Shown: piece after piece, positions 7,075 through 36,376 of the stretch
Numbering within the stretch: the first letter of the stretch is position 1
Layout of the letters: each line of letters begins with the position of its first letter
Assembly (NCBI GenBank): GCA_019058425.1
Contig: JAHPYZ010000013.1
Coordinates: forward strand, 35,626 to 72,666
Length of the DNA: 37,041 bases
Origin: Promethearchaeota archaeon
GTDB lineage: Archaea > Asgardarchaeota > Lokiarchaeia > Sigyniarchaeales > SOKP01
Direction: 5' to 3'
The notes under the pieces: model-generated
Databases searched by the model: none
What the model saw: only the letters and a program-made list of their open reading frames with translations
Told to the model about the DNA's origin: nothing
Program-made: the position numbers and the translations under genes

Positions 7075-7085
7075 ACCTGAAAGTG

Positions 7086-13991: not shown

Positions 13992-14003
13992 ATTTACTTT
14001 TTC

Positions 14004-15407: not shown

Positions 15408-15565
15408 AACGTTTTCCTTTTCATTTAGAAAGTATGGGAGTAAATTAATTATCCTTTTTAAAGATTAGATTATTAAATACAAATGGAAAATTTCATGATA
15501 ATAAAAATAAATTGTTAAATATCCAATAAATCTTTACGATTTTTTCAAATTAAATAAAAATACAA

Positions 15566-15580
15566 TTTTGTCAGACAAAA
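15566..15580. promoter_or_regulatory. 15-bp palindromic operator candidate upstream of AOR
   Basis: TTTTGTC-A-GACAAAA is a perfect palindrome with seven-base arms containing G/C positions, less likely by chance than an all-AT one. It lies immediately upstream of a TATA-like AAATAAATATAAC and 55 bp before the AOR ATG, within the 228-bp divergent region to the transporter gene (15408-15635). Otherwise that region holds no gene. Confidence 0.5.
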
Positions 15581-15635
15581 AAATAAATATAACTGAATAT
15601 TTTAAAAAAAGAATCTAATAGATGAACTCAAGACG

Positions 15636-17495: not shown

Positions 17496-17509
17496 ATTGA
17501 GGACTTAAA

Positions 17510-18742: not shown

Positions 18743-18789
18743 AAAGTATCTCACAACTTTGTAATTCACTTAATATTATTAGATAGTTA

Positions 18790-18798
18790 TTTATATAA
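18790..18798 (+). promoter_or_regulatory. TATA box for GPH symporter 2
   Basis: TTTATATAA is a near-consensus archaeal TATA box, 49 bp before the ATG at 18847. The expected transcription start near 18820 would give a short leader. No GGTG-type ribosome-binding site follows. Confidence 0.5.
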
Positions 18799-18846
18799 GC
18801 TTAATCTAAAGTTTTTTATTAAAATTTTAATTAATATGTGCTTAAA

Positions 18847-20256
18847 ATGGAAGAAAACCGGTCTAAAGAGTATTCAAATAAAGGTGCTGCTTTCTATAGT
18901 TTTGGACAAATTTCCTTAATTACTGCTTATCAGGCATTTACTTTCTTGATATTTACGTTTTATTATGCTGTTGTTGGTCTCGACGTAGTATTAATATCTA
19001 TAGGATTTTTAATATGGTCTATATGGAATGCTTTTAATGATCCTCTAATGGGCTATATTAGTGACAGAACACATACTAAATGGGGACGTAGAAGACCTTA
19101 CATAATGATTGCTCTAGGTCCACTTAGCCTTGTTATGTTTTTCTTATTCTTTCCACCACTCTCTTACGGAATTACAGATCAAACCAGTAATTTCATATAT
19201 TTCATTATAATTATCCTCGTCTTTGAGATGTGCTATACTACATATGACATCAATCTCACGTCTATGCTTCCAGAAATATTTATAACCAAAGAGTCTCGAA
19301 TAAAGGCAAATAATATTCGTCAAGTTTTTGCGATATTTGGATTAATTTTTGCATTTATATTACCCAGTTTCTTCATTCCGGATTATTCATTGCCAGAATA
19401 TTTAAATAATTATGCAATTTTTGGAATAGTGATAGCTGTAATCATCATAATTGTTGGTTTAATATTTCTAAAATTCTCACCACGAGAAAGAGAAGAATTC
19501 AAACAAGAACACGAAAATGTTCCAGGTTTCTTTACTTCATTTAAAATATGTATGAAAAATAAATCTTTTCGATGGGCAATTCCAGCTTTTATGGGAGATT
19601 TTTTTGTTGATACGATACTCCCAACCATATTACCTCTCTATGGAAAATATGTATTGGGTATTGGTGAAGGTGATTCATTTTTTATATCGATATTATTAGG
19701 TCTAACATTCTTATCAGCAGCAATATTTATTACGTTTTTATGGAAACCTCTCGCAGCAAAAATTGGGATAAGGAAGATGTGGATGATATCATCTGCAATA
19801 TGGATAGCTACTCTAGCACCACTTATGTTTATCTCTGACAGATGGTCTGGACTAATTGTTTTCTTTTTAGTTGGAATAGGATTAGCAGGTTCACTATATT
19901 CAAAAGATCTTATTGTTTCTGATATAATTGATGAAGATGAAGTAAACACAGGCACAAAAAGAGATGCAAGTTATTTTGGTATTTATATCTTCTTTCTAAG
20001 AGTTGGATATATTTTTGTATTTCTTTCAATTAGTTTAGTATTCACTAATGTAGGATGGAGAATTTTTGAACCGACTACAATTTCACAATCACAAATTATG
20101 GGTTTGAGATTGTTAACTTTTGTTTTTCCAGCAATTGCTTTATCTGTTATTATTCTAACAATGCTTAAATATCCACTCCATGGTGATCGCTTAAAAGAAG
20201 TTAAAGAAAAATTAACTCAAATACATAGAGAAAAGAAATCTAAGGTTGGAATGTAA
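18847..20256 (+). CDS. GPH-family (MelB-like) MFS symporter 2
   Basis: 469 residues from this ATG; a GTG three codons upstream (18838) is the alternative. About twelve membrane helices and the canonical GPH signature NDPLMGYISDRTHTKWGRRR after helix two. The family imports sugars, glycosides or uronic acids with a cation. It has its own TATA box, follows the AOR-LarA operon, and runs toward the opposing dehydratase gene 32 bp away. With the dehydratase, RraA-like protein and glycosidase nearby it probably supplies a sugar-type substrate. Confidence 0.88.
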   Translation: MEENRSKEYSNKGAAFYSFGQISLITAYQAFTFLIFTFYYAVVGLDVVLISIGFLIWSIWNAFNDPLMGYISDRTHTKWGRRRPYIMIALGPLSLVMFFLFFPPLSYGITDQTSNFIYFIIIILVFEMCYTTYDINLTSMLPEIFITKESRIKANNIRQVFAIFGLIFAFILPSFFIPDYSLPEYLNNYAIFGIVIAVIIIIVGLIFLKFSPREREEFKQEHENVPGFFTSFKICMKNKSFRWAIPAFMGDFFVDTILPTILPLYGKYVLGIGEGDSFFISILLGLTFLSAAIFITFLWKPLAAKIGIRKMWMISSAIWIATLAPLMFISDRWSGLIVFFLVGIGLAGSLYSKDLIVSDIIDEDEVNTGTKRDASYFGIYIFFLRVGYIFVFLSISLVFTNVGWRIFEPTTISQSQIMGLRLLTFVFPAIALSVIILTMLKYPLHGDRLKEVKEKLTQIHREKKSKVGM

Positions 20257-20288
20257 TTAGATTTAACATTTTTTATTTTCTATATTAT

Positions 20289-21959
20289 CTAAATTTCCAG
20301 AATTGCTCCTTTTGCGGCAGAAGATACAAGCTTTTTATACTTTAATAGAGCTTTACTTTTAAATTCTTTCTCTATTGGTTTCCAACCTATAAATCGTTCT
20401 TGTAATTCTTCTTCTGTAAGCTCTGCTTCAAGAATTCTATTTGGGATATCAATATTAATTGTATCTCCATTTCTTAATGCGGCAATAGGACCCCCAACAT
20501 AAGCTTCCGGGCTCACATGTCCTATACAGGGCCCCGAAGTAGCGCCAGAAAATCGTCCATCTGTAATTAATGCCACTCGATCCAATTTGCGTCGGGTCAT
20601 AAGATTTGCTGTAACTGCTAACAATTCTGGCATACCAGGTCCCCCTTTTGGTCCTTCATATCGTATTATAATAACTGAATTATTCTCGATTCTATTCAAA
20701 GATAAAGCGTCAATTGCCTCTTGTTCATAATCGAAACAAATGGCGGAGCCTTTAAATTTTAACATATCTCTATTTTTTACAGCAGATTGTTTCACTACAG
20801 CACCATCTGGTGCTAAATTTCCTTTCAATATAACAGTTCCACCCTCTGGATAAACGGGATCCTCTAAAGATTTAATCACATTATTATCTAAGACTTTTAT
20901 CCTACGGATTTGTTTTTCAATTGTAAGTCCAGAAACCGTTAAGCAATCCAAATGGATAAAATCCTTTATTCTTTTTAAAACAGCTGGAATTCCTCCCGCT
21001 TTATAGAGATCTACAATTCCAAAATCACCTGAGGGAGAAACATTCACTATAGTTGGAATCTTTTTACTATATTCATTAAAGATCTCCAAATCAAAATTTA
21101 TTCCCATCTCGTAAGCAATGGCGGGGAGATGAAGTGCTGAATTTGTAGAACCACCTATAGCAATATCCACCATTATAGCATTCTCAAGAGATTTCTTTGT
21201 CATGATTTTAGATGGAGTTAAATCATTTTTTAACATCTCAATAATTTGCTTTCCTGAATTCTTAGCAGTGATATACTTCATTCTTGTCATCGCTGGAATT
21301 GTAGCTGCATTTGGTAAAGTCATCCCAAATGCTTCCATCAAGCATTGAATTGTATTAGCTGTTCCCATTAATTCACAGGCCCCATAGGTAGCACAAGAGA
21401 TACAATCCAATTTGTGAATAAAATCTCCATAATTACTTTGCTCAATTCCTTTAAAATCAGGTTTAAATCTTATTTCATAAAAATTAGGACCTCCTGGAAC
21501 ACAAATTGTTGGTATATCTAATCGAACAGCAGCCATTAATACTGCTGGATTTATTTTATCACAACTAGATATAGTTACCATTGCGTCCAATCTATGTGCT
21601 TGTACCATCAATTCTATAGAATCTGCTATAGTTTCCCTATGAGGAAGTATATAACGCATTCCTTCATTCCCATTTGCCCATCCATCGCAAGGTCCAACAG
21701 TACAGAACTCAAAAGGGATTCCTCCTGCTTCAATCACTCCATATTTCACGGCTTCTGCAAGATCTCTTAAATGTTTATGCCCAGGATTTACTTCATTCCA
21801 GGTATTTACAACTCCAATAAAAGGTTTTTCATATATATCTTTTTCTTCAAGACCTAACCCTTTAATTATTCCAGATGCAACATATTTGAATGGAGTATCT
21901 TTAACGCCTTCAAAAATCGTTTTACTTCTTTTTTTTAAATCAATTTCTTTTTCATCCAT
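20289..21959 (-). CDS. ilvD: IlvD/Edd-family dehydratase (dihydroxy-acid or sugar-acid dehydratase)
   Basis: 556 residues, full length. It eliminates water from a 2,3-dihydroxy acid to give a 2-keto acid, using an Fe-S cluster and Mg2+. Seen: NEVNPGHKHLRDL (55-67), SSCDKI with C133, YGACELMGTANT with C195, EGPKGGPGMPEL and TDGRFSGATSGPCIGHVSPEA. The PGH at the first site, where some [2Fe-2S] relatives have a cysteine, is also found in E. coli IlvD and fits the oxygen-sensitive 4Fe-4S class. No other branched-chain amino acid gene is nearby, while transporters, an RraA-like protein and a glycosidase are, so gluconate/xylonate-type sugar acids are as likely as 2,3-dihydroxyisovalerate. Divergent from the RraA-like gene, with a shared palindrome between them. 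Confidence 0.9.
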   Translation of the reverse strand: MDEKEIDLKKRSKTIFEGVKDTPFKYVASGIIKGLGLEEKDIYEKPFIGVVNTWNEVNPGHKHLRDLAEAVKYGVIEAGGIPFEFCTVGPCDGWANGNEGMRYILPHRETIADSIELMVQAHRLDAMVTISSCDKINPAVLMAAVRLDIPTICVPGGPNFYEIRFKPDFKGIEQSNYGDFIHKLDCISCATYGACELMGTANTIQCLMEAFGMTLPNAATIPAMTRMKYITAKNSGKQIIEMLKNDLTPSKIMTKKSLENAIMVDIAIGGSTNSALHLPAIAYEMGINFDLEIFNEYSKKIPTIVNVSPSGDFGIVDLYKAGGIPAVLKRIKDFIHLDCLTVSGLTIEKQIRRIKVLDNNVIKSLEDPVYPEGGTVILKGNLAPDGAVVKQSAVKNRDMLKFKGSAICFDYEQEAIDALSLNRIENNSVIIIRYEGPKGGPGMPELLAVTANLMTRRKLDRVALITDGRFSGATSGPCIGHVSPEAYVGGPIAALRNGDTINIDIPNRILEAELTEEELQERFIGWKPIEKEFKSKALLKYKKLVSSAAKGAILEI

Positions 21960-21993
21960 AATAATATCCCATATTCTACTGGATACTTTTTTT

Positions 21994-22010
21994 ATTTGAT
22001 ATAATCAAAT
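21994..22010. promoter_or_regulatory. 17-bp palindrome between dehydratase and RraA-like genes
   Basis: ATTTGAT-ATA-ATCAAAT: perfect seven-base arms, 35 bp upstream of the dehydratase ATG (21959) and 64 bp before the RraA-like ATG (22074). A single regulator bound here could control both directions. Confidence 0.45.
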
Positions 22011-22073
22011 TAATATCATTAAAAAAATAATTTTTCACATACTATTCAAATTTGACTTCAATTGGTGAAAATC

Positions 22074-22745
22074 ATGGATGAAAAACAAATGGAATCTATA
22101 ATTACTGAATATTCAAGACTATATACTTGTGCAGTTTCTGATGCTATCGATGAACTGGGATTTGAACCCGGTTATATTGATGCAGGGATTAGACCTATGT
22201 GGCCTGGTGCGAGAATATTAGGTTTTGCGGGAACTATGAAGATGATACCCTCTAAGGAACCCCTTGAGAGAAATATCATAGCTCGTTTAGTAAAATTTAT
22301 GAGAAAGACTCCAAAATTTCCAGTAATGTGCGTTGATATGTCAAATCAAATGATAGCAGCTGGATTAGGACAAAGTACAAGTAAAATTCTTATAAAGTTA
22401 GGTTTCAGAGGGGGTCTGGTTGATGGCCCTATTCGAGATCTTGCTCAGGTGATTGACTTAAAATTTCCAATTTTTGCTAGAGGGATAATATGTTCTTCAA
22501 TACGAGGTAGAATGGAAATAGATTTGGAATCTGTAATGAAACCAATTCAATGTGGTGAGAGAATAATTAAAGCAGGGGATTTAGTTTTTGGAGATATAAA
22601 CGGAGTTGTAATCGTAAAGTCTGAAAATATCGAAACGGTTTTAGAAAAAGCAAAAGAAATGATATCTACAGATAAATGGTGGTTTGAACAATTAGAAAAA
22701 GGACGCCAGCCAGAAGATATCGAAAAAGAGAAACCACTCCCATAG
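22074..22745 (+). CDS. RraA-family protein (HMG/CHA aldolase or oxaloacetate decarboxylase-like)
   Basis: 223 residues from this ATG. The family signature GGLVDGPIRDLAQV gives the substrate-binding G-x-x-x and R-D pair, and GDLVFGDINGVV supplies the late metal-site region. RraA-fold enzymes include 4-hydroxy-4-methyl-2-oxoglutarate aldolase and related retro-aldolases or decarboxylases of 2-keto acids; RNase E inhibitors share the fold but not this context. An upstream in-frame TTG (22062) and GTG (22065) exist, but GGTGA at 22064-22068, five bases before this ATG, supports 22074. The gene pairs with a dehydratase that would make a 2-keto acid, a fitting substrate. Confidence 0.82.
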   Translation: MDEKQMESIITEYSRLYTCAVSDAIDELGFEPGYIDAGIRPMWPGARILGFAGTMKMIPSKEPLERNIIARLVKFMRKTPKFPVMCVDMSNQMIAAGLGQSTSKILIKLGFRGGLVDGPIRDLAQVIDLKFPIFARGIICSSIRGRMEIDLESVMKPIQCGERIIKAGDLVFGDINGVVIVKSENIETVLEKAKEMISTDKWWFEQLEKGRQPEDIEKEKPLP

Positions 22746-22781
22746 AAATTAATTATAATATAAATCTCATGAGTTTAGAAT

Positions 22782-25184
22782 ATGAAACCTGAAGAAATTT
22801 CAGCATTGAATAAAATTATTGATTTAGTTGAAGAATTTGCTAGAAAAAATGTAATTCCAAAGAAAAAAATTAATATAAATAGAATTAGAGAAAAATTCAA
22901 TGGTATAAAGAATTTATCTAAAGAAGAAAACCAATTCAAACTGTATAAAAGTATTATAAAGAAACTTTCTTCGTTTTTAAGTAGTGAAATCCCGATAAAT
23001 ATCTACTTTATCATTGGAGGGCATGGAGGTGTTATTATTGAGAATATTGGTTTCTGTGAATTTGATTCTCCAGAGTATGCTATAGATATGCTTATAAAAA
23101 AAATGAAATTAGCGATTGAAACTAACATGCCATATAGTCTTGAAATTGCAATCTCATGCTTAGAATGGTTGAAAAAAAAACTTCCAGACAAAACCTCATA
23201 TTTATTTAATTTAGTTCAACAAGGAAAATTTGAAATTATAAATCCCTCTTATTCTCAACCATATAATTTAATTATTGGTCCTGAATCAAATATTAAGCAA
23301 TTTGAATATGGTTTAAAGGAATTAAAAGAATTAGGTTTAGAGTGTAATATGTATTACTGCTCTGAAAGTTCACTCCATCCACAAATTCCTCAGATTCTAA
23401 AAGGATTTAATATAAAATATGGTTCTCTGAGATCAAGGTTATTAGGTATTAACCCTACCTCTATATCCCCATATATAAATTGGATTGGATTAGATAATAC
23501 TTCAATTGAAGCTATTGTTGATCAATCGGGAATATTTAATGGAGAATACTGGCATGGAATGTTCTTTAAAGAAATTCCAAGTTTGTTATTCCAATCTCTC
23601 GGTCGTCCTTTTATGGAGCATGTTGTTTACTCTAATATTGAAGATTTCAGCAATCCTCAACCATTACAAGAAGAAATCTGGCGTATATCTAAATTTTCAA
23701 ATATATTTGGTAAATTTTTACAATGTTCTGAATTTTTTCAAATCATCCCAAAAAATGGTGAATTCAAATATAAAAGGGATGAATTTTTCCTTGGAAATTT
23801 TATTTTTATACCATCTGAATTATTTCTTCAAAATAAAAACTCAGAAATTTTATTATTATCAGCGGAAGTTATTAATTGTATTTTAGGGTTCTTCGGGCTT
23901 AGAAGTAATGATTCATTATTTGAATATTTATGGAAAAAATTTTTACTCACTCAAGCTCATGATTGCTATGCCGTACCTTTTGTACGATCAGGCGACTATA
24001 CTCAAACTCAATTAGGTAAAGATGAATTAGAAAAGTTGCAGATTACTTTTTCTAAGATAACTATTTCTGAACTTAGTCTTCAACTTCATAAAGAAATTCA
24101 AGAAGAATGTCAAAAGTTCATTAATGATTCATTTTCTTATTTAATAAGAGAATTTAATCAAAAAGAATATAATTCAAAAAATAAAACTAAAACTATTATT
24201 GCATTCAACCCTACGCCTTACAATAGACGTGATGTAATTTCAATTTATTCTAACCAAGATTATTTTCTACAGCTTATTGAAGAAATTCCACAATTTGGAT
24301 ACAAAATTGTTACTTATACAAAAGAAAATAGTTTGGAAACTTGTGGAAAATCAAAATTTCTATTTAAAGTAGAGATCTTGGAAGATTTAAAGACGATTCA
24401 AATAACTTATAAAAGAAATACAGTTTTTCAGTTAAGATTTCATACAAAACAAGATTATGAGTTATATTTAGATGGGCAAAGTCAAACTGATGTGAATGAA
24501 AGTAATATTATAATTGACAGATTAATAAATCGCAGCTTCAAAATCAGATTAGTTCAATATAGCGAAATAAATAGACTTGAATTTTTTATTGATTCAGAGT
24601 CAATACAAGAAATAATAATTACTCCTTTAATCAAAATTAAGAAAACTATTATAAATTATCCTTTTGGGATTGAAGAGACGAAGAGATCGAATATACAAAC
24701 ATTAGATATTATGTGGTTAAAGGGATCTAAGCAAGGTATACTTTATATTCAAAAAAATTGCCAGAAATTCATAGTTAATCGAGAAAATTTTGAAATTCGA
24801 AACCTATTAACGAAAAGAGGAAGATATGAATTTGCCATATCAATTACAGATGAGAATGATTCAGTTTCTCCGTTATTTTATGTGAATTCATATTATTACA
24901 AATTTTTATCAATTATTATTGACAAAGATCTTCATTATGCTAATAATTTTGATAAATTTTTATCAATAGAACCCCCAATTTCAGTAATAAATCTTTGGAG
25001 ACGCGAGAATGATTACTTTATAAGATTATTTAATCCGTCTAATGAAGAGCGCATAATTAAAATAAAGGGTAAAATAATAAAAAAACAGGTTAAAGAGATC
25101 GATTTTAATTATAATGTATTATCATCCTTAGATGCTAATAATCTAAAAATAGGGGCATGGAAGATTAAAACATTAAAATTTTGA
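22782..25184 (+). CDS. Glycoside hydrolase family 38-like protein (alpha-mannosidase fold), altered active site
   Basis: 800 residues. The GH38 layout is recognisable. An N-terminal catalytic-type domain has GKFEIINPSYSQPYNLIIGPES and EYGLKEL (the family has a similar W-E-x-x-G-G...E-S...Q-F-x-Y-G run), CSESSLHPQIPQIL (193-206), and LLTQAHDCY (388-396, where GH38 has NQFHD). The beta-rich C-terminal half begins with FNPTPYNRRDVI (about 474-485), like the family's FNPxxxxRxxVV. The usual zinc pair HxD near the N-terminus is not evident (GGHGGVI at 79-85), and the expected catalytic Asp appears as E195. The enzyme may thus have changed specificity or mechanism. It starts 36 bp after the RraA-like gene, so the pair forms an operon. 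No signal peptide; cytoplasmic, acting on imported glycosides. Confidence 0.65.
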   Translation: MKPEEISALNKIIDLVEEFARKNVIPKKKININRIREKFNGIKNLSKEENQFKLYKSIIKKLSSFLSSEIPINIYFIIGGHGGVIIENIGFCEFDSPEYAIDMLIKKMKLAIETNMPYSLEIAISCLEWLKKKLPDKTSYLFNLVQQGKFEIINPSYSQPYNLIIGPESNIKQFEYGLKELKELGLECNMYYCSESSLHPQIPQILKGFNIKYGSLRSRLLGINPTSISPYINWIGLDNTSIEAIVDQSGIFNGEYWHGMFFKEIPSLLFQSLGRPFMEHVVYSNIEDFSNPQPLQEEIWRISKFSNIFGKFLQCSEFFQIIPKNGEFKYKRDEFFLGNFIFIPSELFLQNKNSEILLLSAEVINCILGFFGLRSNDSLFEYLWKKFLLTQAHDCYAVPFVRSGDYTQTQLGKDELEKLQITFSKITISELSLQLHKEIQEECQKFINDSFSYLIREFNQKEYNSKNKTKTIIAFNPTPYNRRDVISIYSNQDYFLQLIEEIPQFGYKIVTYTKENSLETCGKSKFLFKVEILEDLKTIQITYKRNTVFQLRFHTKQDYELYLDGQSQTDVNESNIIIDRLINRSFKIRLVQYSEINRLEFFIDSESIQEIIITPLIKIKKTIINYPFGIEETKRSNIQTLDIMWLKGSKQGILYIQKNCQKFIVNRENFEIRNLLTKRGRYEFAISITDENDSVSPLFYVNSYYYKFLSIIIDKDLHYANNFDKFLSIEPPISVINLWRRENDYFIRLFNPSNEERIIKIKGKIIKKQVKEIDFNYNVLSSLDANNLKIGAWKIKTLKF

Positions 25185-27081: not shown

Positions 27082-27864
27082 TTAACTTTTTAAGAATTTT
27101 GGATTTAATATTGTTTCTGTTATGTTGTTTAGAGCTAAATAACTTTTTGAATTTTCAGAGATATCAATTATTGATTTTCCCTTCACTTCAAATTTTGTAA
27201 TATTATTATCTTCTGGAATTTCTCCCAATACAGGCAGGTTAAGATCTTTTAACTTTTTACGAATAAAATCAATATTCCCTTTGACTCTATTCAGGATAAT
27301 ACCATGTTTTTTGTATTTAGTAAATTTCTTTGCACTTTTTCGAATAGCATCAGCAGTTTCAATACTTCTTATTGAAATATCCGACACGATTAAAAGAATA
27401 TCAACAGTTTCTATTACCAATCGATTGATTTGTTCAAGCCCTGCTTCACAATCAATTAAAACTATATCAAAATCTTTAGAGATAGAACCAATAACCTTTC
27501 GTAAAAGAGTATTTGAGGGGCAAAAGCATCCAGGACCCTCTGGTTGACCTATAGAAAATAGACTAAAGTCTTTACTTTCAACAATAGCTTTATATACTTC
27601 AAAATCAATATTTTCTGCTACTGCTTCAAAATCTTTTGCATTTGTTAATATTTCATCTATCACATCTGTTCTCAGTTTTTCAAGACTTTTTTCCGGAACT
27701 AAATTTAATTGATTACTTAAATGAGGATATGTTGGATCTGCGTCAATCAGTAACAATTTAAATTGATATTTTTTCGAAATCGCCTTCGCTAAAAGGGCTG
27801 TTATTACCGTTTTACCTGAGCCACCTTTTCCAACAACCGATATTATAAGGGGTCTATTTTCCAA
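27082..27864 (-). CDS. cooC: CooC/MinD-type nickel-insertion ATPase
   Basis: 260 residues. Deviant Walker A GKGGSGKT (12-19), IDADPTYPHLS, and the CooC hallmark EGPGCFCPSNTLLR with C113-x-C115. This pair bridges the dimer and binds nickel in CooC (C112, C114 in Carboxydothermus). DIVLIDCEAGLEQINR follows as Walker B. CooC delivers Ni to carbon monoxide dehydrogenase or acetyl-CoA synthase. No CODH catalytic gene is in the window, but the overlapping upstream gene encodes an ACS-like domain, so it may be the client. Start TTG at 27864; no ATG fits the family's N-terminus. It overlaps the upstream gene by 11 bp, showing translational coupling. Confidence 0.87.
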   Translation of the reverse strand: MENRPLIISVVGKGGSGKTVITALLAKAISKKYQFKLLLIDADPTYPHLSNQLNLVPEKSLEKLRTDVIDEILTNAKDFEAVAENIDFEVYKAIVESKDFSLFSIGQPEGPGCFCPSNTLLRKVIGSISKDFDIVLIDCEAGLEQINRLVIETVDILLIVSDISIRSIETADAIRKSAKKFTKYKKHGIILNRVKGNIDFIRKKLKDLNLPVLGEIPEDNNITKFEVKGKSIIDISENSKSYLALNNITETILNPKFLKS

Positions 27865-28636
27865 TCCTTTCTCTCTCTACCAATACTTGTTTAAGTTCAT
27901 AACATTCTGCCTGATAAGGACAAATTTCACATCCCCAATCATATTCACAATCAATTCTTTTTTTCCAATTTTCTATTTTCTCCAACCATTTCTCATTTAT
28001 ATAAGAATTAATTTTTGAAGTAATTCTAATAAATTCATCAATTACATCTGTATAAGTATTAACAAAAATAATCTCCATAGTTTCAATTAAATTTGTAAAT
28101 CTATGCTGATACAAATAAAAAATTGCATTTCCTAAAAATTCAAATGAAAAATTCGGCAATATATTCTTACTGATTCTACACCAAAATTTCCTAGGAATTG
28201 TTCTTATTAAAAAACCTTCTATTCCGTTTGATATTAGATTAAAATGCCTCATAGAATCCCAATCCTTTTCAGTAATATTTTTTACCCCAATTAAGATTAT
28301 CATTCCAAAATCAATAGATAAGTCTGTAATATCTCTTATCTTTTGCCCAATTAATGTAATTGATCCGTTATTTATAAAATTACTAAAAACTGAATTGGAA
28401 AAGGGATATACTAGTGAAAATGATTTTTTATTTGTACCCCCAAATTCAAGTTTTGTTTCTTCTTGAAGAATAATTTCTTTGTGCTTATCAATTTCAACAC
28501 TAATATTTACTTTTTCAAATAGTCTATAAGGGTTAGGATTTTTTTCATAAATAGTCACATTTTTCCCTTTTTGAGCCTCAGAATCAATATAATTCCTTAA
28601 ATTCTTAACTATTTCTTCAAATAATTCTGTTTTCAT
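27854..28636 (-). CDS. Stand-alone acetyl-CoA synthase beta (CdhC/AcsB)-like domain protein with C-terminal four-cysteine motif
   Basis: 260 residues, far shorter than CdhC or AcsB. The segment LEFGGTNKKSFSLVYP, then GSITLIGQKIRDI and FGMIILIGVKNI, corresponds to the ACS region EFGG-T-x-x-x-F-E-x-V / G-x-V-E-V-I-G-P-D-I and the LGIVVEV stretch. GIEGFLIRTIPRKFWCRISK parallels G-x-E-G-x-x-x-x-x-x-R-D-x-x-W-x-R-I-S-K. The true A-cluster segment (C-x2-C ... C-G-C) is absent. The protein ends with C230-x5-C236-x2-C239-x5-C245, a possible Fe-S or metal site. It may bind a CoA/acyl or corrinoid partner without making acetyl-CoA, or act as a metal-transfer partner for the CooC-like ATPase it overlaps. 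ATG at 28636. Homology is seen by pattern only; moderately sure. Confidence 0.65.
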   Translation of the reverse strand: MKTELFEEIVKNLRNYIDSEAQKGKNVTIYEKNPNPYRLFEKVNISVEIDKHKEIILQEETKLEFGGTNKKSFSLVYPFSNSVFSNFINNGSITLIGQKIRDITDLSIDFGMIILIGVKNITEKDWDSMRHFNLISNGIEGFLIRTIPRKFWCRISKNILPNFSFEFLGNAIFYLYQHRFTNLIETMEIIFVNTYTDVIDEFIRITSKINSYINEKWLEKIENWKKRIDCEYDWGCEICPYQAECYELKQVLVERERIGK

Positions 28637-28689
28637 AAAATTCCATTTATAATTCTATAAAAATAATAAAAAAAAGAGGATATATAGTT

Positions 28690-29949
28690 TTATCCCTTAA
28701 TTGCTTTATTTATTAATTCTGATATATCATAGGTTTTAATGCTATTATTTTCTATATTGGCTTTGAATTGGTTTATACAGAAGGGACAGACAGATACTAA
28801 TGCTTCAGCAGTTGTCTCTATAGCCTCTTCAATTCTTTCATTCGCTGCAAAACTAGAAAAATCTTTAAATGCTGATCTTACACCTCCTCCAGAACCACAA
28901 CACCAAGCATTTTGTCTATTTCTCTCCATTTCAATCAAACTTATACCTGGAATACTCTTCAAAACTTCTCTTGGAGGCTCATATATACCCATATGGCGAC
29001 CAATATGACAGGGATCATGATAGGTTATTTTCATATTTAAATTATTATTGAATTCTATTTCTTTATTATTAATTTTCTCTAGAATAAACTCAGGTAAGTG
29101 AAGTATCTCAATACCATGTTCAAGTCCAAATTTTTTAAGATATGTTTCTTTTAACATTCGATAGCATCCTGCACATGAAGTTATAATTTTCTCTATTCCT
29201 TCTTTTTTAAATAAATCTACATTAACTTTTGCAATTTCTTTCGCTTTTTCAGTTTGACCTGTCATATATACAGGAGATCCACAGCAATGTTCGTCATTAA
29301 GTATTTTAAAATCAACTTGTAGTGCATTTAAAATTTCTGCTGTGTTAATTGCGATATCTTGTTCTCGATAACTAGTTGTACAACCAACAAAATATGCTAA
29401 TTTTGCATCTTGAGACTGTTTTATATTTGAAGGTAACCAGTTTGTTCTATCTTTTTGTTTTTCCATATATGGATTATATTCCCTTATAACATGTTCAGAA
29501 TATTTCTTCTGTTCTGGCATTGGCCCTAAACCTTTTTGCACAGCTTTTTCTCTCATTGCCATCAACCATTCTCCAGCGTAACTATGGATTTCAGGAATTT
29601 GACATTGTTGTGTACATGCTAAGCAAACAGAACATTGATAGAATATGTTTGCTAGGTTTTTTGTCCACTTAAGCTGATCAGAAGTCACTGCCCATGCAAG
29701 AAGGTTCTTACCTCCAAGATAAAAAGCTTCAAATTTTCCAAATTCTCCTGAAGGGCAAACTCTTAACCACCCTTTTTCTTGATATCCGGTTCTACAGGTA
29801 CCACATTTTCCACATTGATAAAGAACGTCTTTATAATAATCTAATTCTTTATGTCTTTCCATTTTTTGTTGATCTGGGACTGTTTTAATACGTGTTATAC
29901 CCTTATCATCAATGAATTTTGACTTGTCTTTTCTTGCCACCTTAATCAT
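28690..29949 (-). CDS. HdrD/GlcF-type iron-sulfur oxidoreductase with two CCG domains
   Basis: About 419 residues from ATG 29949; TTG 29955 is an alternative. Two N-terminal 4Fe-4S sites: C46, C49, C52 and C65 (CGKCGTCRTG...CPSG), then C106, C109, C112 and C116 (CSVCLACTQQC). Two CCG domains follow: GCTTS...HCCGSP...CAGC and DPCHIGR...WCCGSGGG...CPFC, the noncubane cluster pattern of heterodisulfide reductase HdrB/D. Such proteins pass electrons between flavoprotein and quinone, ferredoxin or thiol partners. Its start overlaps the end of the FAD-binding gene, so together they form a GlcD/GlcF- or HdrD-like two-subunit unit. Physiological partner unknown. Confidence 0.9.
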   Translation of the reverse strand: MIKVARKDKSKFIDDKGITRIKTVPDQQKMERHKELDYYKDVLYQCGKCGTCRTGYQEKGWLRVCPSGEFGKFEAFYLGGKNLLAWAVTSDQLKWTKNLANIFYQCSVCLACTQQCQIPEIHSYAGEWLMAMREKAVQKGLGPMPEQKKYSEHVIREYNPYMEKQKDRTNWLPSNIKQSQDAKLAYFVGCTTSYREQDIAINTAEILNALQVDFKILNDEHCCGSPVYMTGQTEKAKEIAKVNVDLFKKEGIEKIITSCAGCYRMLKETYLKKFGLEHGIEILHLPEFILEKINNKEIEFNNNLNMKITYHDPCHIGRHMGIYEPPREVLKSIPGISLIEMERNRQNAWCCGSGGGVRSAFKDFSSFAANERIEEAIETTAEALVSVCPFCINQFKANIENNSIKTYDISELINKAIKG

Positions 29950-31417
29950 CTCCAATACCCTGCCCAGGATTCATAATGTTATTTGGATCTAGGAACTTTT
30001 TAATTCTATCGATGAGATTAGTTGTTTCAGGAAGTGTTTTATCTTTATAATTTTGAACAACCCATTTTGGAGGTTTATACATAATTGTTCCTTCAAGTTG
30101 TTGAACAGCATCATGAATTTCTTTTAAGATTTTTCGAGTCTTTTTGACATCTTCAGGATCATTTTTATTGAAATTCACGTTCGTCCTAGTCACACAATAA
30201 TGTCCCCCAAACATAATTCTACAATAATATTGTGGTGGTTTTCCGTATTTAAGACAAATTTCTCTTGAAATATTGTAATATTTAATAATATTACGTGTTG
30301 TATTATAACAGCCAATCCATTCTCCTCCACCTCCTCTGGCAAAATTCCAGCACCCCCAAAATTGTATTGGAAGTTGACCTCCCGTTGCTGGAAATATGTG
30401 ACCTAAAACTCCTCTCATCTGCTCAGGAAAATTGCTCGTTTGAACTTCAGCGGTCGATGCTTCAATATTATATTCCTTACAAATCTTTATAATAGCATCA
30501 CATTGTGCTTTGTGTTGTTCTTCAGTATAGGCCTCAGTGGTAATTAAACCAATAAAATCAGGAAGCCCAAGTGAAACGGGATCTATTGCTACACTCTTCT
30601 GATCAAAACATTGAAGGGATTGTGCCCATCCTAAATTAGTCATTAATAGATCAACTATTCCCAAACGTGCTTTTGCTAATTTCAATAACATAGGTACCCC
30701 ATCTTCAACCCTATTTGCAAAAGGAAGAAAATCTGTACGATATGGTAATTTAGACCAAATTTTTACTGAAGCTTTAGTTACAATCCCAGTCGTACCTTCC
30801 CACCCAATAAATAAACCAGAAATATCAGGAAAAGGTTGTCTACCATACCAATAATCTGTGAGACTGCATGACCCCGCTCTGATTAATTCTCCTGTAGGTA
30901 AGACAACCTCTAATCCGTTAGTAAATTCGGCTCCCGTTCCTCCAATCATACCAAGATCCCACATTCCATATGCTAAGCATGATGGAACTACGCCTGTACC
31001 AGGTGGAGAAAAAGTAACACCTGTCCTAAAATCAGGATGATATTTATTAAGATAACCTACGAAATCAGCCCAAGTGATTCCTCCCTCGACAACAGCATAC
31101 ATATCATCTTCATTTACTTCAAGTACTCGATTCATTCGACGTAAATCAACAACAATACCTCCTTTCTGTGGTGTAGCAATTGAACCAAAATTTATCCCAG
31201 ATACCCAAGGTACGATTGGAATCTTATATTTATTGGCAACTTTTACAATTTCTTGTACTTCTTCAGCGGTTTCAGGCATAATGGCAATATCACATTTTCC
31301 TTCGGGTTCTGCGGTAATAAAATCGTAATGATATAAAAATTGTATTTCAGGTTCTTCAGATACATATCGATCTCCAACGATTTTTCCCAATTCTGTCACA
31401 ATATCGCTATTATTCAT
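29942..31417 (-). CDS. FAD-linked 2-hydroxyacid dehydrogenase-type oxidase (GlcD/D-LDH-like)
   Basis: 491 residues. An N-terminal FAD-PCMH fold is marked by PETAEEVQEIVKVANKYKIP, GGIVVDLRRMNRVLEV, VEGGITWADF and PFPDISGLFIGWEGTTGIVT, a classic PP-loop ending. The C-terminus is KKFLDPNNIMNPGQG. GlcD-like members oxidise D-2-hydroxyacids (lactate, glycolate, 2-hydroxyglutarate). The region GGQLPIQFWGCWNFARGGGGEWIG is unusual and also recalls the vanillyl-alcohol oxidase/4-cresol dehydrogenase relatives, so aromatic alcohols are an alternative. ATG at 31417. The overlapping Fe-S gene is its obvious electron acceptor. Confidence 0.88.
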   Translation of the reverse strand: MNNSDIVTELGKIVGDRYVSEEPEIQFLYHYDFITAEPEGKCDIAIMPETAEEVQEIVKVANKYKIPIVPWVSGINFGSIATPQKGGIVVDLRRMNRVLEVNEDDMYAVVEGGITWADFVGYLNKYHPDFRTGVTFSPPGTGVVPSCLAYGMWDLGMIGGTGAEFTNGLEVVLPTGELIRAGSCSLTDYWYGRQPFPDISGLFIGWEGTTGIVTKASVKIWSKLPYRTDFLPFANRVEDGVPMLLKLAKARLGIVDLLMTNLGWAQSLQCFDQKSVAIDPVSLGLPDFIGLITTEAYTEEQHKAQCDAIIKICKEYNIEASTAEVQTSNFPEQMRGVLGHIFPATGGQLPIQFWGCWNFARGGGGEWIGCYNTTRNIIKYYNISREICLKYGKPPQYYCRIMFGGHYCVTRTNVNFNKNDPEDVKKTRKILKEIHDAVQQLEGTIMYKPPKWVVQNYKDKTLPETTNLIDRIKKFLDPNNIMNPGQGIGDD

Positions 31418-31503
31418 TTTAAATAAACACTTTTAAGAAGTTAAATTATGAATTATAATATTTAATGATATTGACTTGATGATATTAAAGCATTTTCTTA
31501 TAT

Positions 31504-32805
31504 CTACATAAGAGTTTGAGCAAATAATTTAATTTTCTCTCTTATGATCTTTTCAGAGGCAAATCGAGCATCACCAACATCTACATCAATTAAGAGCATG
31601 GGAATTCCAACTTCGTCTCTTAAGGCTTCTCTTAAAATCTGAGGTACACTGCCAAATTGTTTGCAGCCTATATGAGATGTGAAGATGAAACAATCAGCTG
31701 AATAATCTTTTGCTAGTTGAACACATTGATCGATAAAAGAGTAGTAAAATTCCGCAGATTGTTTTACCATTGGAGCTTCCATTGCTCTTTTTGCCATTCC
31801 ATAGAACATGGTGTCTATATCTGATTGAATATTAATTGGTTCAGCAAAATTATAATTAAAAATATCAAATAGAATTGACATTCCTAGGTGACGATCTAAC
31901 CACTCTCCAAGTTCTAAATCAAAAAATATGACCATATATGGCCAAATACTTCTAATTTTTTCTTCTCCACCATGATGTTCTTTATTTTTATACCTTACTT
32001 TTGCAATTTCAAGCATTTCATTATAAAAATTCAATTTTTCGGGACGTCCTGAGAAGTAAATTGCTGCCGCTGCGGCCATCACATTAAACATATTCTCTAC
32101 TGGACAGGGTTTTGCTTTTTTTAATTCGAAAATCTCTAATTGAATTTTTGAGACTTGATTTTCTATTTCAATGGCTTTCTTTAATTTATCATAATCAGGC
32201 TTTTGATTAATAGTTTCACCTAACTTTTCTAATCCAATCTTAATTTGCTCACCGTGGTAATAATAACTCTTTTCCTCTTTTAAAAATGGTAAATCTGGTG
32301 CAATAAGAGGGATCTTTTTATGATATGAAAAAAATGGATATGAAGCATATGTATTGTCACATGGAGCTGTCGGTGTAATAATAGCATCGAACTTGAATAG
32401 ATCATCCAACGTCATCCCCATTGTACCTTTTTGAGAGCTACAAGTATGAAATGGGTGACCCCAATTAGTGATTAAATCATAATATGGTTCAGAACCGTGA
32501 GGTAATAAAGCTGCTAATAAATATGAGACAGCTTCTATGCACACAGGTACGCAATCAAAGCATGAAAGATATTCTGTAGGGAATGAGAAATGATGACCAA
32601 TTATAGGTGAACCTTCTCTTGCTTTTTGAATATATTCTTCCATTAATGATTTTAAAAGTTTCAATCCAATTCTTAATGAAGGAATTCCTTGGTCTGGGAG
32701 TATTCCCTCAATTAATCCATGAGTTGATGAAACTGATTCATACAGCATTTTATATGGAATAATTCTGTTTTCCAATTCTATATTATTTACCATTTCACCA
32801 CACAT
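31504..32805 (-). CDS. 2-hydroxyacyl-CoA dehydratase/benzoyl-CoA reductase-like subunit 1 (HgdB/BcrB type)
   Basis: 433 residues. Family motifs: CFDCVPVCIEA (C82, C85, C89), HTCSS (C122), TPTAPCDNTY (C149), SHIGCKQFGSVPQILREAL (C381) and LLIDVDVGDARFASE. Three of these cysteines would hold a 4Fe-4S or double-cubane cluster. Members dehydrate 2-hydroxyacyl-CoAs, reduce benzoyl-CoA, or (double-cubane proteins) reduce small molecules, all driven by an ATP-dependent activator. Subunit 2 starts 9 bp upstream of this gene, giving a tightly coupled pair. The gap to the next gene (86 bp) is longer, so a second promoter for the redox genes is possible. ATG at 32805. Confidence 0.88.
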   Translation of the reverse strand: MCGEMVNNIELENRIIPYKMLYESVSSTHGLIEGILPDQGIPSLRIGLKLLKSLMEEYIQKAREGSPIIGHHFSFPTEYLSCFDCVPVCIEAVSYLLAALLPHGSEPYYDLITNWGHPFHTCSSQKGTMGMTLDDLFKFDAIITPTAPCDNTYASYPFFSYHKKIPLIAPDLPFLKEEKSYYYHGEQIKIGLEKLGETINQKPDYDKLKKAIEIENQVSKIQLEIFELKKAKPCPVENMFNVMAAAAAIYFSGRPEKLNFYNEMLEIAKVRYKNKEHHGGEEKIRSIWPYMVIFFDLELGEWLDRHLGMSILFDIFNYNFAEPINIQSDIDTMFYGMAKRAMEAPMVKQSAEFYYSFIDQCVQLAKDYSADCFIFTSHIGCKQFGSVPQILREALRDEVGIPMLLIDVDVGDARFASEKIIREKIKLFAQTLM

Positions 32806-32814
32806 TTTATTTCA

Positions 32815-33963
32815 TTATATCATTTCTAAGAATGCTTCTATTCGTGTTTGCAAGCGTGTTGTATCTGATTGATAGAATTCTCTATCCATATTTAGAACAG
32901 GGATATCTAATTCTTTAAATTCATGTGTAAAAAGCATATTATCACATCCATGCAAATCGCAATTGTTTATCCTTTGTAAAATAACTCCTTCAATGTTAGC
33001 TCTTTTGATTTCTTCTTTCAGGAAATCTAATCTTCTTTCATGGTCATCCATCATTCTTGGACATGATAATCTGTAATATAATCGTCTAGTAATGCTTTCT
33101 AAAGGAGATCTACCAGATTCTAGATTAACATCATCCATAAAATTTCGAGTTCCAAAACATAATACATCAGAAGCTAAAAATGCTCCTGAATTTTCTATTA
33201 ATTCTGTAAAGTTAGTATTATCCACTACACTACCCACTAAAAGAATTCGTTTTTTATTATCAATATTTAAATCTTCACGTTCGGTGAGTAAAGTCTTGAG
33301 CCTCCTTAATTCATCATTAGCAATGTCTTTAGGAATTGAAGAATTTGCCATACTTATCTGTAATGCTTCACTACCCGTAAGTTTAGGATTTTTTTGAATT
33401 CTAAACTTATGTAATTCCCTGAGGAGTTTTCTATTTTCATTATATATCTTTATTGATTTTATTAATTTCTCATTAGTTATTTCATTTATTTGAAAATTTT
33501 GCTCTAACTCTTCTTTAAGCTCCTCTACTTCTTTTTTATACCATTCAAATCCCTCATCAGTGATAATATGAGGTAACGCTAAATAAAACCTATTAACATT
33601 TTTCTTAAAATTCTCTCTTTTAAACACTTTAAGATCAAAAAGTTCAAACATTCGTCGACTATGATCACAGCTATTGCAGACTAAAAATCCATCTAAAAAA
33701 TCGTATATTCCTCGTAAAGCCATGTCTAAGGTGGCTCTGACATAAGAACAAGTAAATCTAACCATATATATATCTCCAAGATCAGTATCTTTATTTCCTG
33801 TGGATCTAATTCTAAATGGTAATAAATCTGCGGCATGAAGTAATTCTTCTGGTATATATGTACAATAATAACCTACAACATTCTTACTATTTTTCTGCCA
33901 ATCTTCTATATGTGGGTTATTAATCGTATTGGAAATCTTTAAAAAGGAATCATCTAAAATCAT
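32815..33963 (-). CDS. 2-hydroxyacyl-CoA dehydratase/benzoyl-CoA reductase-like subunit 2 (HgdA/BcrC type)
   Basis: 382 residues. N-terminal GYYCTYIPEELLHAADLLPF (C34) and FTCSYVRATLDMALRG (C72) with LDGFLVCNSCDHSRRM (C96, C99) are the BcrC/HgdA-type cluster region. Later LQRINNCDLHGCDN and the LNMDREFYQSDTTRLQTRIEAFLEM end match the family. It pairs with the downstream subunit to form the usual heterodimer. The usual HgdC/BcrAD ASKHA activator ATPase is not in the window; the RACo-like protein at 1-1689 is a different ASKHA branch. ATG at 33963 has GTGAT upstream. Confidence 0.88.
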   Translation of the reverse strand: MILDDSFLKISNTINNPHIEDWQKNSKNVVGYYCTYIPEELLHAADLLPFRIRSTGNKDTDLGDIYMVRFTCSYVRATLDMALRGIYDFLDGFLVCNSCDHSRRMFELFDLKVFKRENFKKNVNRFYLALPHIITDEGFEWYKKEVEELKEELEQNFQINEITNEKLIKSIKIYNENRKLLRELHKFRIQKNPKLTGSEALQISMANSSIPKDIANDELRRLKTLLTEREDLNIDNKKRILLVGSVVDNTNFTELIENSGAFLASDVLCFGTRNFMDDVNLESGRSPLESITRRLYYRLSCPRMMDDHERRLDFLKEEIKRANIEGVILQRINNCDLHGCDNMLFTHEFKELDIPVLNMDREFYQSDTTRLQTRIEAFLEMI

Positions 33964-33977
33964 TTACATCACTTATT

Positions 33978-34460
33978 TTATTCTTTATACATATTGTGTT
34001 TACCAATCATCAAGCATCTGGCAAATTTTAAAGCAGCAATATAAGAACCTTTAATTTTCAATGTTCCTGGAATAACGTATTTTAATAGTTTTGCTAAACC
34101 AAAAAAATTATGTTTTGAACGAATTATATTGCTAATTACTGTTAATATCTTCTCTTCTTTAACATTTAGGATAATTTTTGCGATAGGGTCATTTGCTCTT
34201 TCAGCATGACAAGTAAAATTATTTTTATCAGATGTAAGTATAAATGTTATATAACCTTCTAGTTGTTTAATATAAAGTTCAACTTCTTTACCTTCTAGAT
34301 TCCCTATCTTCTTAAAAGGTTCTTCTTGACCATATAAATCAATTAACATTTTAGCTAATCGAGTAATATTAAGGATTTTTGTGTCCCTAATTAAATTCTC
34401 AGCGCGAGTATTTATATTAGTTATTTCAAAAGATTTAATTTGATTTATAGCGACCACCAA
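33978..34460 (-). CDS. SCP2 sterol-carrier-like small protein
   Basis: 160 residues, no catalytic residues. The pattern ANDPIAKIILNVKEEKILTV with a hydrophobic C-terminal helix, then GTLKIKGSYIAALKFARCL, resembles the SCP2 fold, which binds acyl chains, sterols or acyl-CoA. This would suit a neighbour acting on CoA thioesters. No ATG is available before residue 38; TTG 34460 or GTG 34457 is used. It has a TATA box of its own (34499-34507) and is 14 bp upstream of the dehydratase subunit 2 gene, so it probably begins the main operon. Confidence 0.6.
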   Translation of the reverse strand: MVVAINQIKSFEITNINTRAENLIRDTKILNITRLAKMLIDLYGQEEPFKKIGNLEGKEVELYIKQLEGYITFILTSDKNNFTCHAERANDPIAKIILNVKEEKILTVISNIIRSKHNFFGLAKLLKYVIPGTLKIKGSYIAALKFARCLMIGKHNMYKE

Positions 34461-34530: not shown

Positions 34531-34893
34531 TTACTCAAAGGGTTCAAATCTTCTACAGATTGAATCTTTCTTTAAAAATTTATTTTTAACCTGACAATGC
34601 AGCTTCTCTTCATTATAATAGAGACAATTACAGCACGAATAAAGATGATTTTTTACTTTTTTAGTTATTTCATTTAATTTTTCAGGATAATTTCCTTTAT
34701 TCAACATTATTCTAAGTTTATCATGAGAAGTAGCTGTTAATCTAGAATAAATAGTCTTAGGAGAGGGAGGATCCCAAATCTCTAGTACGTATGTGTTAGA
34801 AGTATTCTTAGAATGAGATTTTTGGTTGTTATATCCACACTTACAAGCATTTTTCCTCAACAAGCTCCCGCATTCTGGACAGAAATCAACCAA
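34531..34893 (-). CDS. Small zinc-ribbon protein with a second cysteine cluster
   Basis: 120 residues, no recognised enzymatic family. An N-terminal zinc ribbon CPECGSLLRKNACKCG (C5, C8, C17, C19) is followed by a linker and a C-terminal set: SCCNCLYYNEEKLHCQ...SICRRFEPFE. The C-terminal CxxC...C...C with RFxP recalls small archaeal cysteine-rich domains, which may bind Zn or an Fe-S cluster. The start is TTG at 34893 with a strong AAGGTGAT nine bases upstream. It precedes the dehydratase-type operon by 70 bp and may be an accessory or regulator for it; inference only. Confidence 0.7.
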   Translation of the reverse strand: MVDFCPECGSLLRKNACKCGYNNQKSHSKNTSNTYVLEIWDPPSPKTIYSRLTATSHDKLRIMLNKGNYPEKLNEITKKVKNHLYSCCNCLYYNEEKLHCQVKNKFLKKDSICRRFEPFE

Positions 34894-35132: not shown

Positions 35133-36269
35133 GTGTTTAAAGCTCTTGAACTTGATGGGGAACCAGATCTGGTTCCAATCCATTATTTTGGTTTTGAGCA
35201 GACTGGACAATCTTTTCAATCATTCAAAGACTCTGAAGAAAAGAAAACATGCGATGGTTGGGTTAAAAGTAAGAACTCAAAGGTTAAATATTACCTCACA
35301 GAGCCAAGGTTTTGGAATGTTGATCTTTGGGGTATGGATCCATTTGGTGAGCATAAAATAAAGATAAGATATAGACCAGCTCCACCAGAATATCCCGACT
35401 GCCGTATTAATATCATGGATGGGAGGATATATAAAATAGTTAAACAACCAAATACAGGGTTAGAATATACTTGGTATGTGGATGGTCATTTTAAAACTCC
35501 AGAAATCTTATATTCTTATTGGGAAAAGTATGGAAAACCTACAGAAAAGATTAATGATAGAATTAATTATTCCCCTCAAGTTTGGGAAGATTATATAGAA
35601 ACACTTGCACCCTACTTTTATTCAATGGTAAATTTGCCATTAAATCCTTCTGAAGTTTTAATAGGTGGTATTACTTTCCTTCGTTTTTCATATTACATCC
35701 GTAAAAACCCAAAATTCATTCATGATATAATGGATGAATACACTAAGGTAAATATTGAGATAATTAAGCGACTAAGTGAAGCTGGTGTAGATATTGTTAC
35801 TTTTGGTGATGATTTGGGTTATAAAGAAAATCAATTTTTTTCTCTCAAAACATTTCGAGAATTTATCCTTCCATATCATAAAAGCATTTATCAAGCTTGT
35901 AAGAAGAGAGGAATACTAGTTGTATTACACTCGTGTGGCAATGTAGATCCATTTCTACCAGATCTAGTTGATGCAGGACTTACATGTATTCAATCTTTAG
36001 AAGTTACAGCAGGAGTTGATTTGGAAGGGTTAAAGAAAACATTAGGAGATCGTTTATGTTTCATGGGAGGTTTAGATTCATCAGGGGCATTGACATATGG
36101 AACTCCTAAAGATGTAGAGGAAAATGTGAAAAATACTATAAAGATTGCTGGAAAAGGGGGAGGCTATTTTGTTGGACCTAGTCATGATATTTTAAATATA
36201 CCTTGGGAAAATATATTAGCATTAAGAGCTGCTATAGAAAAATATAGGAAATATCCATTGGATTATTAA
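35133..36269 (+). CDS. URO-D family corrinoid methyltransferase-like protein (MtaA/MtbA-type)
   Basis: 378 residues from GTG 35133. The C-terminal zinc site reads LHSCGNVDPFLPDLVDAG, the HxC pattern that binds the thiol or the methyl donor Zn in this family. GLDSSGALTYGTPKDVEENV and GGGYFVGPSHDILNIPWEN are also family-typical. True uroporphyrinogen decarboxylase is unlikely without haem genes nearby; methyl transfer to or from a corrinoid protein is the likely role. Eight further sense codons lie upstream and encode SKRERV, the usual beginning of the family (xxRERVxxAL), but with no ATG, GTG or TTG; only ATA at 35109 sits at a plausible site, after AGGGTG. The callable start may therefore be too short by eight codons. 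A GPH transporter starts 107 bp downstream. Confidence 0.85.
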   Translation: MFKALELDGEPDLVPIHYFGFEQTGQSFQSFKDSEEKKTCDGWVKSKNSKVKYYLTEPRFWNVDLWGMDPFGEHKIKIRYRPAPPEYPDCRINIMDGRIYKIVKQPNTGLEYTWYVDGHFKTPEILYSYWEKYGKPTEKINDRINYSPQVWEDYIETLAPYFYSMVNLPLNPSEVLIGGITFLRFSYYIRKNPKFIHDIMDEYTKVNIEIIKRLSEAGVDIVTFGDDLGYKENQFFSLKTFREFILPYHKSIYQACKKRGILVVLHSCGNVDPFLPDLVDAGLTCIQSLEVTAGVDLEGLKKTLGDRLCFMGGLDSSGALTYGTPKDVEENVKNTIKIAGKGGGYFVGPSHDILNIPWENILALRAAIEKYRKYPLDY

Positions 36270-36376
36270 AGTAAATAAAATCTTTATTAAGTATAAGATT
36301 AAATCTATATATACTATAAAAATCTCTATTGATTATCATTATAAATTAGTTAAAAAAAGTTAAAGAGTTGATTCAA

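Follow-up and report, generated by a model that had tools for sequence, protein, structure and literature searches.

Class I benzoyl-CoA reductases, which reach potentials outside the usual biological window, share a superfamily with the 2-hydroxyacyl-CoA dehydratases, and to our knowledge only few branches of this superfamily have a known reaction. Acetyl-CoA synthase (ACS), a part of which seems to recur in the locus described below, is held to be ancient. According to the available portion of PMC11971306, the double-cubane [8Fe-9S] cluster of the benzoyl-CoA reductase BzdNOPQ is bound by Cys36, Cys73, Cys100, Cys263, Cys293 and Cys327 of BzdN, and His131 and Tyr97 of BzdO are an active-site and a thioester-binding residue, respectively. 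Hermod-, Heimdall- and Lokiarchaeota have been found to carry benzoyl-CoA reductase genes (PMC8163825, in the part at hand). Here we describe a run of seven genes in a stretch of 37,041 nucleotides (the window) from a Promethearchaeota archaeon, which, judging by its sequence, is a different branch from these Asgard genes. Its best explanation, to which we would give a probability of roughly 0.55, is a putative ATP-driven double-cubane reductase with a flavoprotein/CCG-domain partner and a dedicated maturation pair consisting of a stand-alone relative of the A2 domain of ACS (the A2-like protein) and a CooC-like ATPase. Of these components, CooC, the flavin/CCG pair and the superfamily of the reductase have been described before; new, as far as searched, are the ACS-A2-derived partner and the combination. 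No description of this gene set was recognised in a word search of open PMC papers, in agreement with a first-pass annotation of the window, made from the letters alone, which knew of no described pathway with this set.

All seven open reading frames (ORFs) lie on the minus strand at the coordinates given by that annotation, and the gene identities it proposed were borne out in outline by Pfam and solved-structure searches. The run opens with a small protein (33978-34460), which is followed by two subunits with Pfam HGD-D domains, namely the BzdN-like HgdB2 (32815-33963) and the BzdO/HadB-like catalytic subunit HgdB1 (31504-32805; 5.2e-46), then by a flavin adenine dinucleotide (FAD) flavoprotein of the VAO/PCMH superfamily (29942-31417; FAD_binding_4 at 3e-26, and FAD-oxidase_C), a TfrB/GlpC/HdrD-like iron-sulphur (Fe-S) protein (28690-29955; two CCG domains, 4.6e-41), the A2-like protein (27854-28636; CdhC, 1.8e-10) and the CooC-like deviant-Walker-A ATPase (27082-27864; CbiA and Fer4_NifH). 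The FAD and Fe-S genes overlap by 14 bp (29942-29955), the ATPase gene shares the last 11 bp of the A2-like gene (27854-27864), and the remaining intergenic gaps measure 53, 86, 9 and 14 bp.

In the mechanism that we propose, HgdB2 would hold electrons of low potential in a double-cubane [8Fe-9S] cluster, and the reaction itself would take place in HgdB1, on a [4Fe-4S]-OH2 cluster with three cysteine ligands beside an invariant glutamate, as is suggested by the conservation of the ligands. A pair of ASKHA ATPases, encoded next to the reductase in Helarchaeal-type relatives and in those labelled f2 and f22, and elsewhere in the genome of the window, would push the electrons in. The gene neighbourhood further suggests that the FAD and the two-CCG proteins form one electron-transfer unit, acting either as donor or in the next or previous step. 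The A2-like and CooC-like proteins may be a maturation or activation pair dedicated to the reductase, in which the CxC site would let the CooC-like ATPase move a metal or a cluster, and the A2-like protein would be an ACS domain put to a new use, as scaffold or docking piece; this maturation step is the weakest part of the proposal. The most likely candidates for the substrate would be acyl thioesters, either unsaturated or aromatic, and hydrophobic compounds.

With respect to the reductase, the best solved relative of HgdB2 is BzdN (8s02_B, 5.1e-57), ahead of HadC and DCCP, and its cysteines C34, C72, C99, C269, C301 and C335 align in this order with the six BzdN ligands listed above. All six are present in each of 33 distinct HgdB2 sequences, the one of the window included, and equivalents of BzdN Arg267 and His330 are found in 32 and 22 of them, respectively. 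The alignments show no equivalents of C34 and C269 in HadC, and three of the six cysteines are missing in MbdN. When HgdB1 is aligned to DCCP, MbdO, HadB and BzdO, the three cysteines that would hold an open [4Fe-4S] cluster (C122, C149 and C381) and E91, the equivalent of HadB Glu55 and BzdO Glu65, are found in 44 of 44 sequences, and Q125 and K382 do not vary either. Where BzdO has His131 and Tyr97, in contrast, these 44 sequences have T, L, S or A (position 152) and S, A or T (position 124), and never His or Tyr. The two subunits thus seem to keep the electron-storing and the catalytic cluster, and not the benzoyl-CoA pocket chemistry of BzdO, and the enzyme appears to belong to the class I benzoyl-CoA reductase/2-hydroxyacyl-CoA dehydratase superfamily while differing from both named types. 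A tree of 38 N-type proteins joins the window type with an alternative Loki type and the f22 types (support 92/96) and leaves BzdN and three further paralogs of the same genome outside this group; as the outer branches are long, this support is only fair.

The best solved matches of the flavoprotein are a VAO-type oxidoreductase (8s7p), eugenol oxidase and p-cresol methylhydroxylase, which align with its N-terminal FAD-binding half only, and a PCMH-type FAD-binding domain was confirmed. Its substrate half gave no more than a weak second stretch (10.5 bits) against the 4-alkylphenol oxidases, and a specificity for phenols was dropped from consideration since only the FAD half aligns. The Fe-S protein carries two 4Fe-4S-type cysteine motifs besides its two CCG domains; its best NCBIfam model, TfrB, scored 219 bits and did not reach the cut-off of 385.

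The A2-like protein has 260 residues, as compared with about 480 for the CdhC of the same genome. ACS chains were the sole matches of its profile below E = 0.05, over the A2 region, which corresponds to residues 43 to 210 or thereabouts. The AlphaFold2 model has a predicted local distance difference test (pLDDT) score of 86.7, and all 23 Foldseek matches in the PDB with E <= 0.001 are ACS, with TM-scores of up to 0.58. The homology ends within or just after A2, and the A3 domain, which binds the A-cluster in ACS (PMC11474084, in the part available), is absent from the protein. Its C-terminus instead carries a new motif, C230-x5-C236-x2-C239-x5-C245, in a tail that is poorly predicted (residues 229 to 235 with pLDDT < 50); C236, C239 and C245 are present in 59 of 59 sequences and C230 in 55. 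The best solved match of the CooC-like ATPase is CooC (3kje, 1.4e-14), and both a Walker A motif and a CxC metal site were found, the latter as CFC at residues 113 to 115, aligned to the CYC of CooC and kept as CxC in 52 of 53 distinct family sequences.

The gene-order search in Asgard relatives that had been suggested as a check of the run showed the order to be conserved in the genus and, in a looser form, across the phylum. In stretches around the A2-like gene that were fetched from relatives and annotated by homology, the full co-directional run of seven genes is present in 6 of the 19 genomes of the genus (G000, the 4.64 Mb assembly in 143 contigs to which the window belongs, and G002, G004, G007, G013 and G015, out of G000 to G018), with one extra HgdB1 copy and one opposite-strand ORF inserted in G007. 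Four further genomes (G001, G010, G011 and G018) have the identical order up to their contig ends, and the other nine are rearranged or are missing some of the parts. Elsewhere the modules recur in other orders, a genuine SCP2 gene (SCP2b) with the FAD and Fe-S genes being divergent from A2-like and CooC, with the small gene, HgdB2 and HgdB1 nearby. In G133, a member of another Asgard class (L155), a single run reads HgdB2-HgdB1-HgdB1-ASKHA-ASKHA-A2-like, and the CooC gene lies upstream, past an opposite-strand URO-D gene. At L049 (G006), L091, L093, L095 and L129, the place of the window-type reductase beside the A2-like and FAD/Fe-S genes is taken by paralogous HGD-D genes together with a single ASKHA gene, no FAD/Fe-S gene being present within the stretch of L091. 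At L091, L093 and L095, a second A2-like copy, without CooC, adjoins ASKHA-HgdB1-HgdB2, the other copy of each assembly lying elsewhere, with CooC. A protein of 132 amino acids with a cysteine cluster is encoded near the second copy (L091:4228-4626, L095:10750-11148 and L122:13576-13974), directly after it in L091 and L095.

A scan of the genome collection with two peptide patterns yielded 54 A2-like loci, which stem partly from the same assemblies, sometimes overlap and are in many cases cut by contig ends; all are labelled Loki-, Hel- or Sigynarchaeal, and the scan missed the f22 relatives, which were found by another search. The partners at these loci are CooC (46), the Fe-S gene (38), the FAD gene (37), SCP2b (26), HgdB1 (16), HgdB2 (14) and ASKHA (8), and it is because of the linkage of the A2-like gene to the FAD/Fe-S genes and to CooC that these counts support the proposed system. 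With respect to whole genomes, 81 of 227 Asgard genomes gave a match to the A2-like protein, 20 of them only via canonical CdhC (ORFs of roughly 400 to 510 amino acids), leaving 61 with the small protein, and HgdB1, counted at E <= 1e-80, was present in 58. Both proteins were found in 51 genomes, the A2-like protein alone in 10, HgdB1 alone in 7 and neither in 159 (p = 8.6e-33, Fisher's exact test, inflated by kinship). Within the family of the window the corresponding numbers are 39, 9, 7 and 10 (65 genomes, p = 0.004), a count that includes the listed no-match rows, taken as ordered by kinship. Of the 51 genomes with both, 25 have the two genes on one contig, no more than 10 kb apart in 16 of the genomes and no more than 30 kb in 24, and in the single-contig genome G004 they are 2.9 kb apart.

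As for the ATPase, two ASKHA genes lie directly after the reductase genes in G040 (L070), and ASKHA genes also follow them in G051 to G053 (L072 to L074); in these genomes and in the f22 relatives, either two or one of them adjoin the reductase genes. Six BcrAD_BadFG matches are encoded elsewhere in the genome of the window. The CooC-like protein was ruled out as a stand-in for the ASKHA ATPase, as f22 and Helarchaeal-type genomes have both.

Several observations weigh against the proposed system as a whole. BzdNO has been produced with its double cubane in Escherichia coli, according to the available part of PMC11971306, so that this cluster needs no dedicated maturase in general. Only 16 of the 54 A2-like loci hold HgdB1, and at the threshold used above ten genomes with the A2-like protein have no HgdB1 and seven show the reverse. 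In addition, four f22 proteins lack C230 and have another cysteine close to their C-terminal end, and a search of 18 stretches (7 to 20 kb) with the window-type pair, all from the window's family, revealed no ASKHA gene.

Among the alternatives, a reductase with nickel or another non-standard metal, installed by the CooC-type ATPase on the ACS-A2-derived scaffold, appears rather unlikely to us, and its narrower form, a heterometal active site that arises when the ATPase, using the A2-like protein as scaffold, inserts nickel into the Fe-S site of the reductase, more doubtful still. The conserved CxC motif would be in line with such a role, but CooC-type ATPases may also serve Fe-S clusters. A precedent by analogy is the putative isoprene reductase IsrA, which has a Cys6 Fe-S site and HypA and HypB in its operon, HypA being found in near 73% and HypB in near 56% of 988 homologs (PMC10134865, as far as available). 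However, the known enzymes of the superfamily carry Fe-S clusters only, according to the accessible text of PMC11971306. While the hint at nickel given by the first-pass annotation may hold, the CO or acyl role mentioned along with it is not supported: the ACS-like protein has no A-cluster domain and occurs in genomes without a detected canonical CdhC.

It is less probable again that the window encodes a second copy of a true class I reductase for benzoyl-CoA or another aryl-CoA. The BzdN-like cysteine set and the ASKHA pairs of the relatives would fit, but HgdB2 reaches only 139.9 of the 453.8 bits required by the curated bzdN model (TIGR03190), HgdB1 has no match to bzdO (TIGR03191) at E <= 0.001, and the BzdO His131 and Tyr97 positions are substituted throughout, as outlined above. 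The curated DCCP model (NF040772) is likewise missed, with 195.3 and 46.3 of 350 bits. Moreover, another contig of the same genome, away from the window, carries bzdN, bzdO and bzdQ genes that exceed the curated cut-offs, together with a second ASKHA gene (G000:C16, L147, 1491-6175), the match to BzdO being 1.9e-199. Because a genuine BzdNOPQ set is thus encoded elsewhere in the genome, the pair in the window would be a second, different reductase. Neither this set nor the ASKHA genes beside the reductase genes of relatives had been recognised in the first-pass annotation.

An equally small chance is given to the view of that annotation itself, namely that a GlcD-like hydroxyacid dehydrogenase supplies a 2-hydroxyacyl-CoA dehydratase system. 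The subunits are members of PF06050 and HgdB1 shares Glu55 and the three cysteines with HadB. However, the label of dehydratase does not fit the six-cysteine double-cubane set that HgdB2 has in common with BzdN and DCCP and of which the solved HadC lacks two positions, and the scores of 37 of 750 bits (HadB) and 156.9 of 700 bits (HadC) stay below the dehydratase cut-offs. The flavoprotein reaches 100.4 of 567.9 bits with glcD (TIGR00387), its best matches being the 4-alkylphenol oxidases and p-cresol methylhydroxylase, and the suggested flow of hydroxyacid electrons via GlcD is not supported. The electrons of 2-hydroxyacids are also far too positive for a cluster of the benzoyl-CoA reductase type without ATP.

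That the A2-like and CooC-like proteins serve the cell's own carbon monoxide dehydrogenase (CODH)/ACS, their position here being incidental, is very unlikely. They are homologous to ACS and CooC, and a canonical CdhC is encoded in the genome of the window (G000:C5). However, among 58 relatives the A2-like protein occurs together with canonical CdhC in 29 and alone in 4 (G004, G006, G011, which is only 58% complete, and G027), CdhC occurs alone in 16 and neither in 9, and the pair is repeatedly linked to reductase and FAD/Fe-S genes. On these counts CODH/ACS maturation was rejected as its main role, and CO or acetyl chemistry by the A2-like protein was rejected as well, given the lack of an A-cluster domain and the 4 of 33 A2-like genomes without canonical CdhC. 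No CODH gene was found among the window ORFs scanned. Equally remote is the idea that the modules lie side by side but have no function in common, which would agree with the 26 of 51 genomes that have A2-like and HgdB1 genes on different contigs but not with the reassembly of the same modules in varied orders and orientations across several Asgard classes.

The small gene at 33978-34460, orthologs of which precede HgdB2 in relatives, matched no Pfam family at the standard limit, and SCP2 appeared only with the limit raised (E = 0.097, below the cut-off). A firm SCP2 assignment was dropped in view of this score, an hhalign probability of 13% against the genuine SCP2b family and a failed AlphaFold2 model (pLDDT 45.8), so that the label remains uncertain. 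SCP2b itself, a different small gene that adjoins the FAD gene in relatives, matches SCP2 at E <= 0.01 in 12 of 13 cases. A cysteine-rich, zinc-ribbon-like protein without a Pfam match (34531-34893, minus strand) is a possible eighth gene of the run, an ortholog lying directly before the SCP2-like gene in G002, G010, G013 and G015.

Near the two ends of the window, a RACo-type corrinoid-activating protein (100-1689) and an MtaA/CmuA-type URO-D protein (35133-36269) hint at corrinoid methyl transfer. The loci L085, L099, L124, L155 and L158 likewise have URO-D genes next to A2-like/CooC-like genes; a role of the gene at 35133 was nevertheless dropped, since the genome has 15 URO-D genes and the adjacency may be due to chance. 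What looks like a sugar-acid island (12468-25184) comprises AOR, LarA-like, IlvD/EDD, RraA-like aldolase, amine-oxidase-like FAD and GH38/57-like proteins and two MFS_2 transporters, a further MFS_2 transporter starting at 36368. A SNF2-type helicase followed by a SWIM zinc-finger protein is encoded at 3877-8033.

The locus represents a further branch of the superfamily, which several Asgard classes have kept along with the same partners throughout, and it links this superfamily to a flavoprotein/CCG pair and a freed piece of ACS. If the preferred reading, a double-cubane reductase with its own maturation pair, is correct, the closest archaeal relatives of eukaryotes would have one more reaction of relevance to energy, so far unrecognised, and, should the A2-like/CooC-like pair indeed mature or activate the reductase, the building or loading of such clusters in archaea would become directly testable in E. 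coli. Should nickel or a non-standard metal be involved, an ACS domain would act as cofactor chaperone outside CO metabolism, in a new class of ATP-driven metalloenzyme catalysing a reduction not yet described in Asgard archaea.

Of the known systems, the putative isoprene reductase operon resembles the locus in combining a flavin/Fe-S reductase, a Cys6 site and nickel chaperones; it is bacterial, however, with a single-chain IsrA, HypA/HypB in place of CooC and no HGD-D gene in the operon as described (PMC10134865, in the portion at hand). In the benzene-degrading strain BzS1, a PCMH-type FAD protein adjoins an Fe-S protein with two Cys-rich domains, and this pair makes up much of the proteome; compared by description only, the heterotrimeric BzS1 flavoprotein differs in having two FAD subunits and, in the cluster as described, no HGD-D genes (PMC13416013, part of the text). 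The CooC-like protein shares with CooC its Walker A motif and CxC site, as well as being closest to it among solved structures, but its gene is tied to the A2-like gene and has no CODH gene beside it in the window. Similarly, the A2-like protein corresponds to ACS/CdhC in its A2 domain, both by sequence and by predicted fold, whereas it lacks the A1 and A3/A-cluster domains and has a new cysteine tail. The six-cysteine cluster site is common to HgdB2 and DCCP (PDB 6eno, 7yyl), which is a homodimer according to the available part of PMC11971306, in contrast to the two different subunits of the window, of which the better reaches 195 of 350 bits. With HadBC/HgdAB the pair shares the HGD-D fold, the three-cysteine [4Fe-4S] site and the Glu55 equivalent, but HgdB2 has the full six-cysteine double-cubane set. 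The closest system is BzdNOPQ (PDB 8s02; PMC11971306, as far as its text was available), with the same N/O architecture, the nine cluster cysteines, the catalytic glutamate and, in relatives, adjacent ASKHA genes; the pair of the window differs from it by its scores below the cut-offs, by the replacement of BzdO His131 and Tyr97, by the lack of ATPase genes in the window and by its attachment to FAD/CCG, A2-like and CooC-like genes.

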